Positions 4,663-14,418 are shown, counted from the stretch's first letter. The stretch: 64,000 nt of DNA from an uncultured Phascolarctobacterium sp. (GCA_949285135.1 CASDXO010000008.1:1-64000), one strand, 5' to 3'. Numbers and translations: made by a program. The notes: generated from the sequence alone by a model not told the origin.

Positions 4663-5970
4663 GTGAAAAAATTTGTTTTACCTATAGGCAAAAGAGAAGA
4701 AGAGGTCTTCCTGCCGGAAGATAGAATACTTTATGATATTCATGGCAATCCTGCGACTGAAAAAGAGAGTATTGCCGAAGCTGCTCTGGAGGCTATAAGA
4801 AATCCTGTCGGAACAAAACCTTTACGGGAAATAGTTAATAAAGGAGAAAAAGTAGCTGTCATCGTAAGTGATATTACACGTATGGTAGGTACTGCAGAGT
4901 TTCTGCCGGTAGTTATTAACGAACTGAATGATGCCGGTGTTGCTGACGAGGATATTACGATTATTATTGCTACAGGTACGCACAGAGCACATACTCCAGA
5001 AGAAGATATCGTGGTATGCGGAGAAGAAATAGTAAAAAGAATAAAAATCCATCAGCATGACTGCCGCAATAATGCAGAACTGGTAGATTTGGGTGAAACG
5101 AGTCGAGGTACACCTATTTTAATTGACAAGTATGCTGTAGAGGCTGATAAAGTCATTATTACCGGTTCCGTCAGTCTGCATCCAATGGCAGGATTTGGGG
5201 GTGGCCGCAAGGCAGTAATGCCCGGAATTTCCGGATACAGTACCATTATGCATAACCATGCTATGGCTTTATCTGAAACTGTAGGCGAGGGCTGCAATCC
5301 GGAATGTGAAACAAGCGTGCTGGAAAATAATCCGCTGCATGAAGATATGACGGAAGTTTGTGCAAAGCTGGCACCGGCTTTTTTGGTAAATACTGTATTT
5401 ACTCCAGATGGCAAACTGCATGAAGTTGTTGCTGGCCATTGGTATGATGCATGGGTTAAAGGATGTCAGGATCTGCTGAAAATGGCCGGAATACCTATTA
5501 AAGAGCAGGCTGATGTTGTTTTTGCTTCTGCAGGGGGATTTCCGAAAGATATGAATTTGTACCAGAGCTGCAAAAGCCACATGAATGCTGTCTTTGCCGT
5601 GAAAAAAGGTGGTATTTTAATTTTGACATTAGACTGTCCGGATATCAAAGAACCGGCAATTTTTACTGACTGGTTTGCCAAAGATGACATTCTGCAGTTT
5701 GAAAAAGACGTAAGGGCAGATTTTTCCATTCCGGCATTTGTGGCTTTTAAATCGCGCTGTATTGTCAATTCTTTGACTACTTATCTTGTAACTCGACCGG
5801 AAAATTTTGACTTTGTGCGTAAAACAGGACAGATTCCGGTAGCGACATTGGCGGAAGCATGGGAACTGGCTCAGCAAAAACTGGCGGAGCAGGGTAAGGA
5901 TGATTATACAATTACTATTATGAGTCATGCGCCATCTACGCTGCCTGTTTTAACTAAGGAAACGATATAA
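4663..5970 (+). CDS. LarA-type nickel-dependent 2-hydroxyacid racemase homologue (first copy)
   Basis: Member of the lactate racemase (LarA) superfamily, 435 residues, which uses a covalently bound nickel-pincer nucleotide to racemise or epimerise 2-hydroxyacids. The catalytic and cofactor residues of LarA line up: SDITR at 69-73, TGTHR with His107, LHPMAGFGGGRK with His173 and Lys183, and HNH with His199. It starts at GTG 4663 behind a strong GGGGAGGTA. A paralogue begins directly after its stop codon. Known homologues act on lactate, malate, phenyllactate or sugar acids, so the substrate is not settled. The cofactor genes larB, larC and larE are not in the window. Confidence 0.9.
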   Translation: MKKFVLPIGKREEEVFLPEDRILYDIHGNPATEKESIAEAALEAIRNPVGTKPLREIVNKGEKVAVIVSDITRMVGTAEFLPVVINELNDAGVADEDITIIIATGTHRAHTPEEDIVVCGEEIVKRIKIHQHDCRNNAELVDLGETSRGTPILIDKYAVEADKVIITGSVSLHPMAGFGGGRKAVMPGISGYSTIMHNHAMALSETVGEGCNPECETSVLENNPLHEDMTEVCAKLAPAFLVNTVFTPDGKLHEVVAGHWYDAWVKGCQDLLKMAGIPIKEQADVVFASAGGFPKDMNLYQSCKSHMNAVFAVKKGGILILTLDCPDIKEPAIFTDWFAKDDILQFEKDVRADFSIPAFVAFKSRCIVNSLTTYLVTRPENFDFVRKTGQIPVATLAEAWELAQQKLAEQGKDDYTITIMSHAPSTLPVLTKETI

Positions 5971-7281
5971 ATGACTATCAGAAATTTTGAACTGAAATAT
6001 GGTAAAGCTTCTAAAAGCATAGCGCTGGATGAGAACAAAGTATTGCAGGTGCTGGAAAGCAAGCAGCAGGAGCCAATAGGTGATATCAGACAGGCCGTTC
6101 TGGAGGCTGTCAGGAATCCTGTTGGTACTAAACCGCTGCGTGAGCTTGTCAATCCGGGAGATAAAGTATGCATCGTAGTAAGTGATATTACCAGAGCATG
6201 GTCAAAAACGTGTGAATATCTGCCACCCGTAATTGAAGAGCTTAATAATAATGGTATTCCTGATGCTGATATCTTTGTCATTGTGGCAGGAGGTACTCAT
6301 AGGAGTAATACTGATGAAGAAATAAAAATAATTCTTGGTAATGATTTGGCGCAGAGATTGCAGGTATATGCTCATGATGCTTACAGTGATGTTGATAATA
6401 TCTATCTTGGTACTACCAGTCGCGGTACGGAGGTATACCTTGATAAACGTGCTGTAGAGGCTGACAAGGTGATTTTAACAGGAGGGCTTACACCGCATTT
6501 GTTTGCCGGTTTTGGCGGCGGCAGAAAAAGTGTGATGCCTGGAATTGCAGGAGTTAAGACTATCAATCACAATCATCTGCTGGCTTTAGCTGATATTCAG
6601 GGTGAGGGAATCAATAAAGAAACCTGTCTGGGTCGCGTTGAAGGCAATAGAGTCAATGAAGATATGTGTGAAGTATGTGCTTTTCTTAATCCCTGTTTTT
6701 TGATCAATTCTGTTATGGATGCACAGGGAAATTTTGCTGCTATTTTTGCCGGACATTGGTACGACGCGTGGTATGCCGGTACGCAGTTTGTTATCAGGCA
6801 ACAGGGTGTTCCTGCCTGCGGTAAAAGCGATATTGTTATCGCTTCAGGCGGCGGTTTTCCAATGGACATGAATCTTTATCAGGGCATGAAAGCATATGTA
6901 CCTGCGGTGATGACCCTAAAAGAGCATGGGGTAATGATTGTTACTCTGGAATGTGAAGATATTGCCGAGCCACCGATATTTTTTGATTGCTTCCGTTATG
7001 ATGATTTAAAAGAAATGGAACAGGCTGTAAGGGATAATTTCAGCATTCCTTTTTATGTGGCTTTTTATATGTGCTGTTTGGCAGCTCAATATACGATAAT
7101 TTTAGTAACAAAAGAAGAAAATTTTACTCAGGCGGCAAAAACCGGTGCCATACCGGCAGCAAGCCTGGCAGAAGCCATGCAGATGGCTGAAGAGGTTTTA
7201 AGGCAGCAGGGTAAAGAGGATTATACGGTAACAGTTATTCCTTACGGCTTTACTACCATACCTTTGTTTGCTGATAAATAA
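5971..7281 (+). CDS. LarA-type nickel-dependent 2-hydroxyacid racemase homologue (second copy)
   Basis: Second LarA superfamily protein, 436 residues. It has the same signature residues as its neighbour: SDITR at 71-75, GGTHR with His110, LTPHLFAGFGGGRK with His176 and Lys186, and NHNH with His200/202. The start ATG directly abuts the TAA of the first copy, so the two are probably made in equal amounts and may form a complex. The copies differ in the residues around the substrate (for example MVGTAEF against AWSKTCEY after the SDITR motif). That suggests different substrates or a specialised heteromer. It is followed by a 2-hydroxyacid dehydrogenase. Confidence 0.9.
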   Translation: MTIRNFELKYGKASKSIALDENKVLQVLESKQQEPIGDIRQAVLEAVRNPVGTKPLRELVNPGDKVCIVVSDITRAWSKTCEYLPPVIEELNNNGIPDADIFVIVAGGTHRSNTDEEIKIILGNDLAQRLQVYAHDAYSDVDNIYLGTTSRGTEVYLDKRAVEADKVILTGGLTPHLFAGFGGGRKSVMPGIAGVKTINHNHLLALADIQGEGINKETCLGRVEGNRVNEDMCEVCAFLNPCFLINSVMDAQGNFAAIFAGHWYDAWYAGTQFVIRQQGVPACGKSDIVIASGGGFPMDMNLYQGMKAYVPAVMTLKEHGVMIVTLECEDIAEPPIFFDCFRYDDLKEMEQAVRDNFSIPFYVAFYMCCLAAQYTIILVTKEENFTQAAKTGAIPAASLAEAMQMAEEVLRQQGKEDYTVTVIPYGFTTIPLFADK

Positions 7282-7292
7282 AACTGGCGTTT

Positions 7293-7351
7293 AAAAGGAG
7301 GGGAATCTGCTGCGACGCCTGTATTTCAGAAAATAATTTTGCAGCAGAATG
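7293..7351 (+). promoter_or_regulatory. Shine-Dalgarno separated from AUG by an inverted repeat (RBS bridge)
   Basis: An exceptionally strong Shine-Dalgarno (AAAAGGAGGGG, 7293-7303) lies 45 bases upstream of the AUG at 7349, too far to work linearly. The gap is bracketed by a perfect 8-bp inverted repeat: TCTGCTGC at 7306-7313 and GCAGCAGA at 7341-7348. If the RNA folds, the SD ends two bases before the helix and the AUG starts directly after it, restoring short spacing. There is no T-run, so it is not a terminator. No start codon at normal spacing opens a long frame: the in-frame TAA at 7334 blocks an upstream start. Confidence 0.6.
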
Positions 7352-8311
7352 GAAGAAATGAATTATAAGACAAGAAGAGTTGCTATTATTGGTTTAGGGC
7401 ACGTTGGCGCCCATTGCGCTTACAGCCTGGCTATTCAGGGCATTGTTGACGAACTGGTTTTGATTGATAAAAACGCAGAAAAGGTTGTCAGTGAGTGTCA
7501 GGATTTACGTGATGCTGTAATGTACATGCCTCATAATGTAAAAATTTCCATCGGTGAATATAAAGATGTTGTAGACTGTGATATTATTGTCAACTGCATC
7601 GGTGATATCAGACTGGTTGCTACTGGTGACCGCAATGATGAAATGAATTATACCGTTTCCAATCTGAAAAAGTATATGGGCAAGCTGAAAGACAGCAGAT
7701 TTGACGGTGTAATTATCAATATTACCAATCCTTGTGATGTAATTACCGATTTAATGGCAAAATTAAGCGGACTGCCGGCAGGACGTGTATTCGGTACCGG
7801 TACCGGTCTTGATACATCCAGACTGGTATCCCAGCTTGCATTACAGACCGGTGTTGATCATCAGTCCATTTCTGCATATATGATTGGTGAACATGGCGCT
7901 TCTCAAATTGCGGCATGGTCTTGCGTAAACTTTGGTGGTGTACCGCTGGATGTTTTGACTGAAACTGACGACCGTTTTAAATTTGACCGGGACGATTTGC
8001 AGAAAAAGGCAATTGCTGGTGGTTGGGTTACCTATAAGGGTAAACAATGTACAGAATATGGCATTTGCTCCACATTGGCACGCATGGTAAAAGCAGTGCT
8101 GTGTGATGAAAAACATATTATGCCTGCCAGCGCCGGCCTGCACGGTGAGTATGGTGAGAGTGATGTCTTTGTAGGAGTTCCCTGCCTTATTGGTAAAAAT
8201 GGTGTGGAACAAGTTATTGAACTACCGCTTAGCGAAGATGAAAAAGCTGCTTTCCATAAATGCTGTGAAGATGTTCGTGCAAACATTAAGAAAGCAGAAG
8301 CTATCAACTGA
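7349..8311 (+). CDS. L-2-hydroxyacid dehydrogenase of the LDH/MDH family (L-2-hydroxyisocaproate dehydrogenase-like)
   Basis: NAD-dependent dehydrogenase, 320 residues, of the lactate/malate dehydrogenase fold. The N-terminal GLGHVG is followed by VLIDKN, whose Asp suggests NAD over NADP. Catalytic parts are present: NPCD (Asp), LDTSR (Arg) and GEHGAS with the proton-relay His, though GEHGDS is more usual. The substrate loop (IGDIRL...TGDR) lacks the canonical PG of lactate dehydrogenases. It resembles that of Lactobacillus L-2-hydroxyisocaproate dehydrogenase, so a bulkier 2-oxoacid than pyruvate is likely. It lies behind two LarA homologues, as expected for stereo-inversion coupled to oxidation. 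ATG 7358 is an alternative start. Confidence 0.85.
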   Translation: MEEMNYKTRRVAIIGLGHVGAHCAYSLAIQGIVDELVLIDKNAEKVVSECQDLRDAVMYMPHNVKISIGEYKDVVDCDIIVNCIGDIRLVATGDRNDEMNYTVSNLKKYMGKLKDSRFDGVIINITNPCDVITDLMAKLSGLPAGRVFGTGTGLDTSRLVSQLALQTGVDHQSISAYMIGEHGASQIAAWSCVNFGGVPLDVLTETDDRFKFDRDDLQKKAIAGGWVTYKGKQCTEYGICSTLARMVKAVLCDEKHIMPASAGLHGEYGESDVFVGVPCLIGKNGVEQVIELPLSEDEKAAFHKCCEDVRANIKKAEAIN

Positions 8312-10250: not shown

Positions 10251-10388
10251 TATCTTTCATACAATTTTTTAGCAAAAATTGCATGATTTATGGTTTTTTT
10301 ACTTTAAAATGTGAAAATAAGGCAAAATATTTATGCTCAAGGCAGGATTATTGTGCCATATGTAGAATAATAGTAGACGGAAAATATC

Positions 10389-10543
10389 GACAGGTGCATT
10401 AACTGCGGTTAGTGCTTAAAAGGGAATACCGGTGAGAATCCGGAGCAGTCCCGCTACTGTAAGTGGAGTTCGCGCAAAATGTCACTGGCGTATGCCGGGA
10501 AGGCGCGTGGAACGATGAAGCTAAGCCAGGAGACCTGCCTGTC
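10389..10543 (+). promoter_or_regulatory. cobalamin (AdoCbl) riboswitch
   Basis: Class-typical elements are all readable. P1 pairs GACAGG (10389-10394) with CCTGTC (10538-10543). The conserved core GGTGAGAATCCGGAGCAGTC is followed by CCGCTACTGTA, and the B12 box AGCCAGGAGACCTGCC sits at 10524-10539. It lies directly upstream of the cobU-cobT-cobS operon, with a terminator as expression platform. Ligand-bound RNA is expected to switch the operon off. Confidence 0.95.
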
Positions 10544-10604
10544 ACGAAGCCATGTGGCCTACGGGAGATAGGTCGGTGTTCGTATATTATTAAGTATTTG
10601 TATG

Positions 10605-10634
10605 TCCTCCCATAGTATGTGGGAGGATTTTCTT
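10605..10634 (+). terminator. riboswitch-controlled terminator of the cob operon
   Basis: 8-bp stem TCCTCCCA (10605-10612) / TGGGAGGA (10620-10627) followed by TTTTCTTG, located between the riboswitch aptamer and the cobU ribosome-binding site. Its position makes it the likely expression platform. I did not work out the competing antiterminator. Confidence 0.82.
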
Positions 10635-10660: not shown

Positions 10661-11233
10661 ATGGAAAGTAAACTGGTATTAGTAACCGGCGGTTCCAGAA
10701 GCGGTAAAAGTGAATTTGCTGAAAAATATGTACTGCATTTTTCTCCCAAATGCGATTACATAGCTACGGCAGAAATATTAGACGATGAGATGGCAGAGAG
10801 GGTGCGCCTGCATCAGATACGGCGTGCTGACGGCAGATGGCTTAATCACGAAGCACCATATCATGCTGAAAAGGTTTTTGCACATCTGAGTGATGAAACT
10901 GATGCGGTGTTGTTTGACTGTCTGACTGTTTATATGGCTAATCTTATGTACGGGCAAGAGGCGCCGCAGGGCAGTTTTATCGAACGTTGTGAAGCTGTTT
11001 TTGCAGAAATAGATAAATTGCTGCTGGCGGCACGCAATAGCGGAAAGCTGGTAGTATTTGTTACCAATGAGGTAGGCGGTGGAATTGTGCCGGATAATAA
11101 AGCAGCACGTGAATACAGTGATTTGTCCGGCTGGGTAAATCAGAGAGTTGCTGCAGCTTGTGACAGCGTATTTTACTGTGTAGCAGGGCAGGCTGTAGAT
11201 GTAAGAAAACTTGCATACAAATTTGAAGATTAA
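10661..11233 (+). CDS. cobU: adenosylcobinamide kinase / adenosylcobinamide-phosphate guanylyltransferase
   Basis: Bifunctional enzyme of nucleotide loop assembly. It phosphorylates adenosylcobinamide and then transfers GMP to give AdoCbi-GDP. The 190 residues start with the P-loop GGSRSGKSEF (about 10-19). LHQIRRADGRW carries the histidine expected to be guanylylated, and VTNEVGGGIVP is the family C-terminal signature. The start is ATG 10661 with AAGGGAGG ten bases upstream. A GTG at 10619 lies inside the riboswitch terminator and is rejected. First gene of the B12-controlled operon. Confidence 0.96.
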   Translation: MESKLVLVTGGSRSGKSEFAEKYVLHFSPKCDYIATAEILDDEMAERVRLHQIRRADGRWLNHEAPYHAEKVFAHLSDETDAVLFDCLTVYMANLMYGQEAPQGSFIERCEAVFAEIDKLLLAARNSGKLVVFVTNEVGGGIVPDNKAAREYSDLSGWVNQRVAAACDSVFYCVAGQAVDVRKLAYKFED

Positions 11234-11243
11234 GGAGATCGTA

Positions 11244-12254
11244 ATGGAAAATATTATTATACCTGAGCTTGATAAAAATGCTGCTCGACTGATTAGAGAA
11301 GGATGGCAGAAAATGGATAAGCCTGCCGGGAGTTTGGGCAAATTGGAAGAAATGGTGGAACAATATGCTGCCATGACAGCCAAACAGCTGCCGGAAAAAA
11401 TAAAAACTGCCATGCTGTTAATGTGCGGTGACCATGGAATTGCTAAGTATGGCGTGAGTGCTTATCCGCAGGAAGTTACCATGCAGATGATTAACGGTTA
11501 TATGCGTGAGACTGCAGGAGCTAATGTTATGGCTAGACATGCAAATGCCGATGTTATCGTAGTAGATGTTGGTACAGCTTTTGACCTCAGCCATTTAGAA
11601 AAAGTACATCAGCTAAAGGTAGCCTGGGGTACGGAAGATTTTACGCAGGGACCGGCTATGACTAAAGAGCAGGCTTTACGGGCGCTGCAGGCAGGTATGC
11701 AGATGGCGGATGAATGCATAGACAAGGGTTATAACCTGCTGGCAACTGCGGAGATGGGTATTGGCAATACAACTTCTACTGCTGCCATTGTATCTGCCTT
11801 TTTGGGATTGCCGCCGGAACTGACGGTTGGACGTGGTACGGGTATTAATGATGAACGTATGAAGATTAAGCGTCAGGTGGTAAGTGACGGTTTAGCAAAG
11901 AATAAACCTGTTCAGGGAGATGCTCTGGACATTTTGTGCAAGGTTGGCGGATATGATCATGCCGGACTTGCCGGTATGATTATTGCCGGTGCCAAGCGAC
12001 GTGTTCCTACCATGGTAGACGGCGTTAATGCAACAGCAGCGGCGCTGCTGGCTTACGGACTTTATCCGGCCTGTGCCGATTACATGCTCTGTTCACACCT
12101 CAGCGCTGAAATTGCACATAAAAAAATGCTTGATGTACTTAAACTGACGCCGATAGTTGATGCCGGTATGCGCCTTGGCGAAGGTACTGGAGCAAGCCTT
12201 GCCATCGTCGTGCTGCAGGCTGCCATTGATGTTTATAATAAATTAAGCAGGTGA
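11244..12254 (+). CDS. cobT: nicotinate mononucleotide:base phosphoribosyltransferase CobT (full-length, ArsA-like candidate)
   Basis: Activates the cobamide lower-ligand base by transferring ribose phosphate from nicotinate mononucleotide. The 336 residues keep all family motifs: KPAGSLGKLE near 24, CGDHGIA then GVSAYPQEVT near 60-80, EMGIGNTTSTAA near 170 (nucleotide site) and RLGEGTGAS near 310, which holds the catalytic Glu equivalent to Glu317 of Salmonella CobT. The start is ATG 11244 behind AAGGAG, not the earlier ATG inside cobU. A second, shortened CobT homologue lies two genes downstream, which is the ArsA/ArsB pattern of Sporomusa ovata. The base used cannot be read from sequence alone. 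Confidence 0.93.
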   Translation: MENIIIPELDKNAARLIREGWQKMDKPAGSLGKLEEMVEQYAAMTAKQLPEKIKTAMLLMCGDHGIAKYGVSAYPQEVTMQMINGYMRETAGANVMARHANADVIVVDVGTAFDLSHLEKVHQLKVAWGTEDFTQGPAMTKEQALRALQAGMQMADECIDKGYNLLATAEMGIGNTTSTAAIVSAFLGLPPELTVGRGTGINDERMKIKRQVVSDGLAKNKPVQGDALDILCKVGGYDHAGLAGMIIAGAKRRVPTMVDGVNATAAALLAYGLYPACADYMLCSHLSAEIAHKKMLDVLKLTPIVDAGMRLGEGTGASLAIVVLQAAIDVYNKLSR

Positions 12255-12255
12255 A

Positions 12256-12996
12256 ATGATGCGTGATTTTATAACCTGTCTTGAATTTTTAACAAGAATA
12301 CGATTTTCTCATCGTACTGACTGGCACGATGATGATTTTTCTCGCAGTGTACCGTATTTTCCGCTTGTAGGTCTTGTCATCGGTCTGTTTTTAGGTGGGG
12401 TCAATTATGCTCTTGTATATGCAGATACACCGCTTTTTATGCGTGGTGTTATGTTGATATTGGCAGAAATGATTGTGATCGGGGCGTTAATGTATGATGG
12501 CTTTATGGATACATCAGATGGCGTTTTTAGTGCCCGTAACAGGGAACGAATGCTGGAGATAATGAAAGACAGCCATGTTGGTTCTAATGCGGTTATTGCA
12601 CTTGTATGTCTGGTATTACTCAAAGTTGCTGCCTATACTTCCATTGACAGCATAAAACTGTCTTATGCTCTTATAGCAATGTCAGTTGCTACGAGGACAT
12701 TTATGGTAAATTATATTGTTAATTTCAAATATGCTCGCAAAACAGGTATTGGGCATATGTTTACTCAGTATGCAAAACCCATATATTCATATATTGCTTT
12801 TGCTGTGGGTACAGTTTTAATTTGTCTGTGCGGGCTTAATTATCTGTATGCGGCTATTGTGGCTTTTGTTCTCAGTCTGCTGCTGGCGCGTTTTCTGAGC
12901 AGTCAGCTGGGAGGCCTTACCGGTGATACCTATGGATTTCTTACGGAATGTGGTAATGTTATATACTTAATGGCGGCAGTTTATCTGCTGCGTTGA
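12256..12996 (+). CDS. cobS: adenosylcobinamide-GDP ribazoletransferase
   Basis: Integral membrane cobalamin synthase that joins AdoCbi-GDP to the activated lower-ligand riboside. The 246 residues are largely hydrophobic, with about six membrane segments. The metal-binding signature DGFMDTSDGVFSARNRERML sits near 82-101 and LTGDTYG near the C-terminus. It starts one base after cobT (ATGATG, either codon possible), so translation is coupled. The active site should face the cytoplasm. It lies between the two CobT homologues. Confidence 0.95.
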   Translation: MMRDFITCLEFLTRIRFSHRTDWHDDDFSRSVPYFPLVGLVIGLFLGGVNYALVYADTPLFMRGVMLILAEMIVIGALMYDGFMDTSDGVFSARNRERMLEIMKDSHVGSNAVIALVCLVLLKVAAYTSIDSIKLSYALIAMSVATRTFMVNYIVNFKYARKTGIGHMFTQYAKPIYSYIAFAVGTVLICLCGLNYLYAAIVAFVLSLLLARFLSSQLGGLTGDTYGFLTECGNVIYLMAAVYLLR

Positions 12997-13010
12997 CCAA
13001 GGAGGAAAAA

Positions 13011-13808
13011 ATGCAAATAGAAGAAGTTATTTCTCAGATTACAGCAGTTGATGCCGATTGTGCGGCAAAAGCACAGGAACGTTTTGATAATCTGATAAAA
13101 CCGGTTGGCTCATTGGCAAAACTGGAAAGCATGATTACTCAATATGCAGCGATTACAGGCCGATATGAAAAAGACAAGCTTGACTATCCTAAAAGAGCCC
13201 TTCTGGTTTGGGGTAATATTACACATGCGGAGCAGGCAGAGAAAATTATGCTTGGGAAATGGCCTGTCAATATCTTGGCGGCAGAAACGGGAGCGCAGGC
13301 TGTACCGCTGCTGGTAATGGCTGACAATGAAACTGACGCCATGGCAGAAGGTGCAATACTCGTCAAAGAGCATGTTGCTAAAGATAAACTCCAGATGCTT
13401 GGCTTTGGTTGTCTGGAAGATAAAGATAATCTGGTGATAGCAGCAATGACAGGGGCAATTTTGCAAGCAGCGGCACTAAAGGTGCCTGTAATGCTTGATG
13501 GGGCTGCTACCTGCCGCGCATTGCTCAAAGCAATGCAATATAATACACTTGTAAAAGAATATTGCTTTGCCGGACATGTATCGCTGGAAAATGATATGGA
13601 AGATTTATTGGCAGAATTACAGCTGTCGGCACCTTTGCGTCTCAATATAACTGATGGCAGCGGTGAAGGTGCGGCTATTGCTTTTACGCTTTTTGATGCC
13701 GGCCTTAAAGCTTATAAGGAAATGGAGACTTTTGCCGAGGCTGGTGTACATGCTGAAATGAAAGAATTTTCTCATGCCGAACAGGTAAAAGGAGAACAAA
13801 GGAAGTAA
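13011..13808 (+). CDS. shortened CobT-like protein (ArsB-like candidate)
   Basis: 265 residues, about 70 fewer than the upstream CobT. The N-terminal KPVGSLAKLE and C-terminal LDGAATCRAL...TDGSGEGAAIAFTLFDAGLKAY regions align with CobT. The CGDHGIA/GVSAYPQEVT base-binding stretch is replaced by unrelated sequence, and EMGIGNTTSTAA, part of the nucleotide site, is absent. It is therefore unlikely to be an active transferase alone. In Sporomusa ovata two CobT homologues, ArsA and ArsB, form a heterodimer that activates phenol and p-cresol, with only ArsA catalytic. This gene fits the non-catalytic role by inference. Start ATG 13011 behind AAGGAGGA. The frame is intact, so it is not a decaying gene. 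Confidence 0.8.
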   Translation: MQIEEVISQITAVDADCAAKAQERFDNLIKPVGSLAKLESMITQYAAITGRYEKDKLDYPKRALLVWGNITHAEQAEKIMLGKWPVNILAAETGAQAVPLLVMADNETDAMAEGAILVKEHVAKDKLQMLGFGCLEDKDNLVIAAMTGAILQAAALKVPVMLDGAATCRALLKAMQYNTLVKEYCFAGHVSLENDMEDLLAELQLSAPLRLNITDGSGEGAAIAFTLFDAGLKAYKEMETFAEAGVHAEMKEFSHAEQVKGEQRK

Positions 13809-13812
13809 TATT

Positions 13813-14418
13813 ATGGGTAAGCTCTATCTTATCCGCCATGGTCAGACGGATTCTAACACAGTCAGAAGATTCCAGGGACGTATAAATACCGGACTTAATG
13901 CAGTCGGAATTGAGCAGGCACAAAAGCTGGCTGAATATTTTCGTGACAAACCTTTGCAGGCAATTTATTGCAGTCCTTTAAAGCGTGCGCAGTCTACTGC
14001 AGAAGCGTTGGCTGCGATAAAAAATTTGCCTGTTTATTCTATGGAAATGCTGCAGGAAATAAGTTTTGGCGGTTGGGAAGGATTGTGTTACAGCGAAATT
14101 GCCGAAAAATGGCCGGAAGAAATAAAGCTTTTTTATGAAAATCCGGAGTTGTGTTTGCCGCCTGACGGAGAAACATTTGGCAAAGTACAGGAAAGGGCAA
14201 TCAAGGCATTGAGACAGATATTGCAGGAACAGGGAGAAGATAAGGATATAGCCGTGGTATCACACGGTGGTGTTATCAGGACACAAATATGCGCTTTGCT
14301 TGATATACCTTTGTCTAATTTTTGGCGCCTAAATATTCATAATGCATCTACTACGTGTTTTAGCGTTTGGGACGGTCATTTTACGGCAGAAGTTATCAAT
14401 GACTGCCATTATTTGTAA
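13813..14418 (+). CDS. cobC: alpha-ribazole phosphatase (histidine phosphatase family)
   Basis: Removes the 5' phosphate of the cobamide or of alpha-ribazole phosphate, the last step of nucleotide loop assembly. The 201 residues start with the phosphohistidine motif LIRHGQTDSN (residues 5-14). A second His lies in VVSHGGVIRT near 155, and E/GGWEG near 85-90 is typical for the family. The histidine phosphatase family is broad. The assignment to CobC rests on its place as last gene of the cob operon, four bases after the shortened CobT. Confidence 0.88.
   Translation: MGKLYLIRHGQTDSNTVRRFQGRINTGLNAVGIEQAQKLAEYFRDKPLQAIYCSPLKRAQSTAEALAAIKNLPVYSMEMLQEISFGGWEGLCYSEIAEKWPEEIKLFYENPELCLPPDGETFGKVQERAIKALRQILQEQGEDKDIAVVSHGGVIRTQICALLDIPLSNFWRLNIHNASTTCFSVWDGHFTAEVINDCHYL

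Follow-up and report, generated by a model that had tools for sequence, protein, structure and literature searches.

The locus considered here raises the question of why a cobamide-assembly operon should carry two homologues of CobT, one full-length and one shortened, and how the two might work. It lies in an uncultured Phascolarctobacterium sp., within a window of 64,000 nucleotides (the whole stretch of DNA that was analyzed), where a cobalamin riboswitch, cobU, cobT1, cobS, cobT2, and cobC follow one another on the plus strand (Table 1). The original prediction had placed two CobT homologues on either side of cobS in the order cobU-cobT-cobS-cobT2-cobC, and both genes were found there. It had further described the two as an assembly of the ArsAB type. 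ArsAB of Sporomusa ovata, a NaMN:phenol/p-cresol phosphoribosyltransferase, is represented by the structures PDB 4HDK, 4HDM, 4HDN, 4HDR, and 4HDS, and of its two subunits only ArsA is said to be active, an observation reportedly made by Newmister in 2012. ArsAB is established as an enzyme that uses phenol and p-cresol not only in S. ovata but also in V. parvula (PMC8123684).

Table 1. Features of the cobamide-assembly operon, in positions of the window.
Feature	Position	Strand	Evidence
Cobalamin riboswitch aptamer (RF00174), operon head	10375..10556	+	114.4 bits, gathering 31.5
Terminator-like hairpin between riboswitch and cobU	10604..10628	+	weak, possible expression platform
cobU, adenosylcobinamide kinase/guanylyltransferase	10661..11233	+	PF02283, 1.8e-52
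cobT1, full-length putatively catalytic CobT homologue, 336 aa	11244..12254	+	TIGR03160 371.5 bits, cut-off 319.3
CobT1 Glu170, equivalent of Salmonella CobT Glu174 (EMGIGNTT)	11751..11753	+	alignment
CobT1 Glu313, equivalent of Salmonella CobT Glu317 (RLGEGTGAS)	12180..12182	+	alignment
cobS, adenosylcobinamide-GDP ribazoletransferase	12256..12996	+	PF02654 6.7e-49; TIGR00317 120.5, cut-off 110
cobT2, shortened, putatively non-catalytic CobT homologue, 265 aa	13011..13808	+	PF02277 128.5 bits, cut-off 22.6
CobT2 Ser217, where CobT has the general base Glu317	13659..13661	+	alignment
CobT2 conserved C-terminal tail, residues 238-254, METFAEAGVHAEMKEFS	13722..13772	+	near-invariant in 14 relatives
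cobC, alpha-ribazole phosphatase	13813..14418	+	TIGR03162 168 bits, cut-off 162.9

Both proteins matched PF02277, with E-values of 3.7e-118 for CobT1 and 4.3e-37 for CobT2. The TIGR03160 score of CobT2 was 113, under the curated whole-protein cut-off of 319.3, and BLASTP comparison of CobT1 with CobT2 gave an alignment confined to the ends of the proteins. An RF00174-type element was likewise found at the operon of two relatives. The hairpin that follows the riboswitch is a weak candidate, since the region contains five such sites against 3.9 expected, which is near chance. Elsewhere in the window, two tandem lactate racemase (LarA-type) paralogues (4663-7281) are followed by a gene of the lactate/malate dehydrogenase family (7349-8311).

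Near relatives of CobT2 were found in Phascolarctobacterium and other Acidaminococcaceae. A CobT homologue was present in 47 of the 59 genomes of the family; all 47 encoded CobT1, and 46 also encoded the shortened second copy, the lone genome without it (G038) being fragmented and readable just up to the contig end. The order cobU-cobT1-cobS-cobT2-cobC was invariable in the family wherever the contigs permitted. A search of the nine genomes of genus g2 (G001-G009) found no CobT homologue, and HydG-like matches were present in them. In genus g16 (G040-G042, loci L074-L077), CobT1 was about 266-302 aa and CobT2 114-221 aa long, some of the CobT2 sequences being cut by contig ends; no ThiC-type gene was found in the genomes of this genus, which are possibly reduced. 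The sampled Bacillota outside the Negativicutes mostly had one full-length CobT per locus, and within the Negativicutes two CobT copies or one long fused frame were usual. A literature search found no paper linking Phascolarctobacterium by name with CobT.

CobT1 and CobT2 were aligned with E. coli CobT, with ArsA and ArsB of S. ovata as given in PDB alignments, and with 200-odd relatives. In Salmonella CobT, Glu317 is the general base and Glu174 holds the ribose (PMC9561151). CobT1 was complete in the alignment, and the equivalents of these two residues were invariant in 43/43 CobT1 proteins of the family. All the CobT1 motifs named by the original prediction (CGDHG, GVSAYPQEVT, EMGIGNTT, and RLGEGTGAS) were found, as were the end motifs of CobT2, and the alignment with ArsA, ArsB, and CobT showed the catalytic residues to be kept in CobT1 and lost or degenerate in CobT2. 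The "middle" that CobT2 was said to have lost does comprise the active-site parts, but these are several separate loops rather than a single block: little remains of the DHG-YPQEVT loop, the GTxDFTxGPAM segment and the GRGTG loop are missing, and the EMGIGNTT motif is gone. Nor can SGEGAAIA be counted as a kept motif in the catalytic sense, as Ser217 stands at the Glu317 position. Among 42 CobT2 proteins of the family, the Glu174 position was occupied mostly by Cys, Ser, Thr, Ala, or Val; just 10 retained Glu317, and the CobT2 of the window has neither Glu. The NTT and GRGTG motifs are likewise missing from the ArsB of S. ovata, which is nevertheless nearly full length (350 aa), so that CobT2 represents a further-reduced form. 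This pattern of residues suggests that activity is confined to CobT1 and that CobT2 is catalytically dead.

The motif account given in the original prediction overlooked the C-terminal tail, which is absent from CobT1 and present in CobT2. The tail of ordinary CobT, with the consensus MATFEEAGV, was found in 34/35 proteins, which comprised outgroup CobT and the ordinary CobT of Negativicutes. In the family it was found in none of the 43 CobT1 proteins as against 39/42 CobT2 proteins; the corresponding counts were 6/27 for ArsA and 26/28 for ArsB, whose tail reads MKTFGEAEVAVA. The relation between the tail and the active site was examined in 81 A/B pairs from Negativicutes, in which five active-site motifs were scored in the B copy. 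The A copy kept its tail in 7/8 pairs with an intact B active site and in 0/73 pairs with a degraded one; read the other way, B was intact in 7/7 pairs in which the A tail was kept and in 1/74 in which it was lost. The sole exception to this rule (L097:4546-6746) has a degraded A tail (MISYEDSAG) and a B copy with all five active-site motifs. The association gave a Fisher value of 2e-9, uncorrected for kinship; the kinship-aware comparison left just 3-5 independent contrasts, nearly all agreeing, with a non-significant sign test. A tail that served its own subunit would be expected to leave the opposite pattern, so the observed one fits a tail that acts on the other subunit.

The structure of CobT2 was predicted with AF2 using 13 relatives (pLDDT 86.6, pTM 0.84). 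The model has the CobT fold, and the predicted fold is that of CobT minus the active-site loops; its closest solved structures were ArsB (Z 29.7), ArsA (28.0), and CobT (about 27). In this monomer model, residues 245-258 and 261-265 had pLDDT below 50, although residues 238-254 are nearly invariant. A segment so conserved and so poorly placed in the monomer would fit folding onto a partner, and together with the distribution of the tail it suggests that the tail of CobT2 may complete the active site of CobT1 in trans.

Proteins whose genes are naturally fused are classically taken to associate physically, and fused CobT-CobT proteins of 578-715 aa were found in several families of Negativicutes, with a front half in the ArsA clade and a back half in the ArsB clade (L099:3773-5779, L101:1876-3873, L105:3001-4890, L124-L127, L162, L164, and L169). 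At least 39 genomes had CobT in an open frame of this kind (578-843 aa). Ten fusions were split into halves and examined; the tail motif was present in 0/10 front halves and 9/10 back halves. Like CobT1 and CobT2, the fused proteins combine a catalytic front with a degenerate, tail-bearing back half; they differ from them in being one polypeptide and in falling within the ArsA and ArsB clades, and are predicted to be single-chain ArsAB.

Owing to the tail/active-site pattern and the fusions, comparison lends good support to a heterodimer in which one partner is dead. The claim that two CobT homologues act together, with activity only in the first, gains from catalytic residues, conserved pairing, fusions, and tail pattern alike, and the pair is a real and conserved one that most likely forms a heterodimer with CobT2 as its dead member. 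In the mechanism proposed here, CobT1 and CobT2 would be obligate partners in a heterodimeric nicotinate-mononucleotide:base phosphoribosyltransferase built like ArsAB, with its sole active site in CobT1. The dead, loop-stripped CobT2 would supply the dimer interface, and its C-terminal tail (METFAEAGVH) would close or complete the active site of CobT1 in trans. The product would be the alpha-riboside phosphate of the lower-ligand base, which CobS would join to adenosylcobinamide-GDP and CobC would dephosphorylate, the whole being controlled by the cobalamin riboswitch.

Whether this pair descends from ArsAB was addressed in a tree of 84 sequences, in which the bootstrap was not fully settled at the supports given here. 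The ArsA clade, which includes S. ovata ArsA, had a support of 100/100. The CobT1 proteins of the family and three relatives of the same gene order formed a clade of their own (99/97) outside the ArsA clade and sister to it, with a joint support of 97/94. The ArsB clade was likewise supported at 100/100, and CobT2 fell outside it in a separate clade (96/91). The trees of the CobT1 and CobT2 clades matched in branching order. Behind cobS, the place of cobT2 is occupied in L100, L102, and L110 by an intact ordinary cobT, and L110 has, in addition, a CobT1-clade gene ahead of cobS. Gene order therefore favours a closer kinship of CobT2 with ordinary CobT than with ArsB. Together with the shared branching order, it speaks for an origin of CobT2 from an ordinary CobT that decayed and was recruited, separately from ArsB, into a parallel pair of a catalytic and a dead subunit. 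On the other side, the AU tests rejected neither CobT2 with ArsB (p 0.41) nor CobT2 with ordinary CobT (p 0.41), the CobT2 branches being long, and ArsB is a slightly closer fit to the CobT2 model than CobT is. The chances of such an independent recruitment are put just short of even.

CobT1 itself has features of both relatives. Among PDB entries it matched S. ovata ArsA best, at 292 bits, T. thermophilus CobT scoring 241, and of the 41 alignment columns that best separate ArsA from CobT, 14 were ArsA-like and 15 CobT-like. The base loop of CobT1, YPQEVTMQMI, is of the ordinary CobT type, the ArsA type being YP[VI]ETTxxMT. With ordinary CobT (Salmonella, E. coli, Thermus; NaMN:DMB phosphoribosyltransferase), CobT1 shares a passing TIGR03160 score, every catalytic residue, and the usual base loop; it differs from it in that ordinary CobT is encoded by a single gene and forms a homodimer with its own tail, whereas CobT1 is tailless and paired with CobT2. 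With ArsAB, the pair shares two CobT homologues of which one has an intact active site and the other has degenerated loops and keeps the tail; CobT1 is sister to ArsA, and the CobT2 model best matches ArsB. The differences from ArsAB are that the ArsAB genes are tandem whereas cobT1 and cobT2 are split by cobS, that CobT2 has 265 aa against 350 in S. ovata ArsB, that CobT1 has a CobT-like base loop, and that the two proteins lie outside the ArsA and ArsB clades. The ArsAB label of the original prediction thus held for the pairing of a catalytic with a seemingly dead homologue, but not for the clade of CobT1 or its base loop.

Base supply bears on whether the pair is nevertheless a genuine ArsAB with phenol or p-cresol as its base, the organism then making phenolyl or p-cresolyl cobamides. 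HydG, like ThiH, releases p-cresol, and the genome encodes both ThiH (508.7 bits) and HydG (716 bits). For ThiH this activity has been described (PMC9046217). The genome also carries the anaerobic corrin-ring genes (CbiD, CbiL, CbiF, CbiH, CbiET, CbiA, CbiB, CobD, and cobyric acid synthase). A genome search for BluB gave a best score of 57.8 bits against a cut-off of 150, so none passes, and a search for Bza gave a single ThiC-type gene, over the ThiC cut-off and under that of BzaB. With ThiH and HydG present, p-cresol would be available, and DMB would not be made by a known route; purines are always present. The genome has methylmalonyl-CoA mutase homologues, and the methylmalonyl-CoA mutase of S. 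meliloti binds phenolyl cobamides well in vitro (PMC6759758). These points and the sister relation of CobT1 to ArsA agree with phenolic use. Against it stand the position of both proteins outside the ArsAB clades, the evenly split columns with the CobT-like loop, and the finding that a ThiH- or HydG-level match was present in 28 of the 47 CobT-bearing genomes and absent in 19, one of them rated 100% complete. Furthermore, the CobT1-CobT2 operon (L078) is accompanied in one genome (G043) by an ArsAB pair at another locus (L079), whose ArsB is shortened; both loci are headed by a cobalamin riboswitch of their own. A protein search with the ArsAB contig of this genome found no close relative within the order; its tetranucleotide composition scored 0.78-0.92 against most contigs of the genome and 0.74 against the CobT1-CobT2 stretch, and the contig is probably native to the genome. 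A true phenolic ArsAB is accordingly regarded as possible but on balance doubtful, and p-cresol or phenol is proposed as the base with similarly limited confidence; a purine or a salvaged benzimidazole is the alternative.

A residue signature of phenol use was also considered. According to the PDB titles, the S80Y/Q88M/L175M variant of Salmonella CobT was crystallised with p-cresol, but the set Y80/M88/M175 was discarded as non-diagnostic, since almost every Bacillota CobT examined has Met at 88 and 175 and either Tyr or Phe at 80. Two further observations were made on other contigs of the genome. A ZMP/ZTP riboswitch (L193:2941-3022) lies some 2 kb away from thiH. In the cluster of corrin-ring genes, cobD and the gene for cobyric acid synthase stand on either side of an apgM-like gene (L207:2973-4100), whose product is of the phosphoglycerate mutase family (223 bits, below the family cut-off) and may be a phosphatase or kinase of the cobamide pathway.

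Because CobT1 has every known catalytic residue, it might also work alone as a homodimer. CobT2, encoded between cobS and cobC, would then have another role, such as regulating, carrying alpha-ribazole phosphate, or serving as a scaffold for CobS and CobC. Such a role is unlikely, as CobT1 has lost its tail exactly where a tail-bearing partner exists and both halves are fused in other lineages. That CobT2, shortened and stripped of catalytic residues, is a functionless pseudogene or an annotation remnant is highly improbable and was rejected: it is retained in the same place in 46/47 CobT-bearing genomes and is under purifying selection, with dN/dS of about 0.06-0.2 in ten comparisons, mostly slightly above that of CobT1.

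The preferred reading of CobT1 and CobT2 as a heterodimer with a dead partner can be set against the published record. Phenolyl-type assembly has been thought rare, as ArsAB was found in 27 species in a survey that took tandem genes of 300-800 aa as its criterion (PMC6461909). The present pair, with cobS between its genes and a CobT2 of 265 aa, falls outside that definition. Since such a filter would miss the pairs of the Acidaminococcaceae and all fusions, split CobT is seemingly far commoner in Negativicutes than recorded. It is also conceivable, though we hold this tentatively, that the locus represents a second, independently evolved split CobT, made of an ArsA-sister subunit and a decayed ordinary CobT, with a trans-acting tail and a base preference other than that of ArsAB. 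If this is true, the Negativicutes would have divided CobT into a catalytic and a dead subunit more than once, and the trade-off between tail and active site would be the signature of that division. The trade-off offers a concrete mechanism and an example of a homodimer split into a worker and a helper, in an enzyme of consequence for the gut community, where the choice of cobamide lower ligand determines which microbes can use the cobamide.
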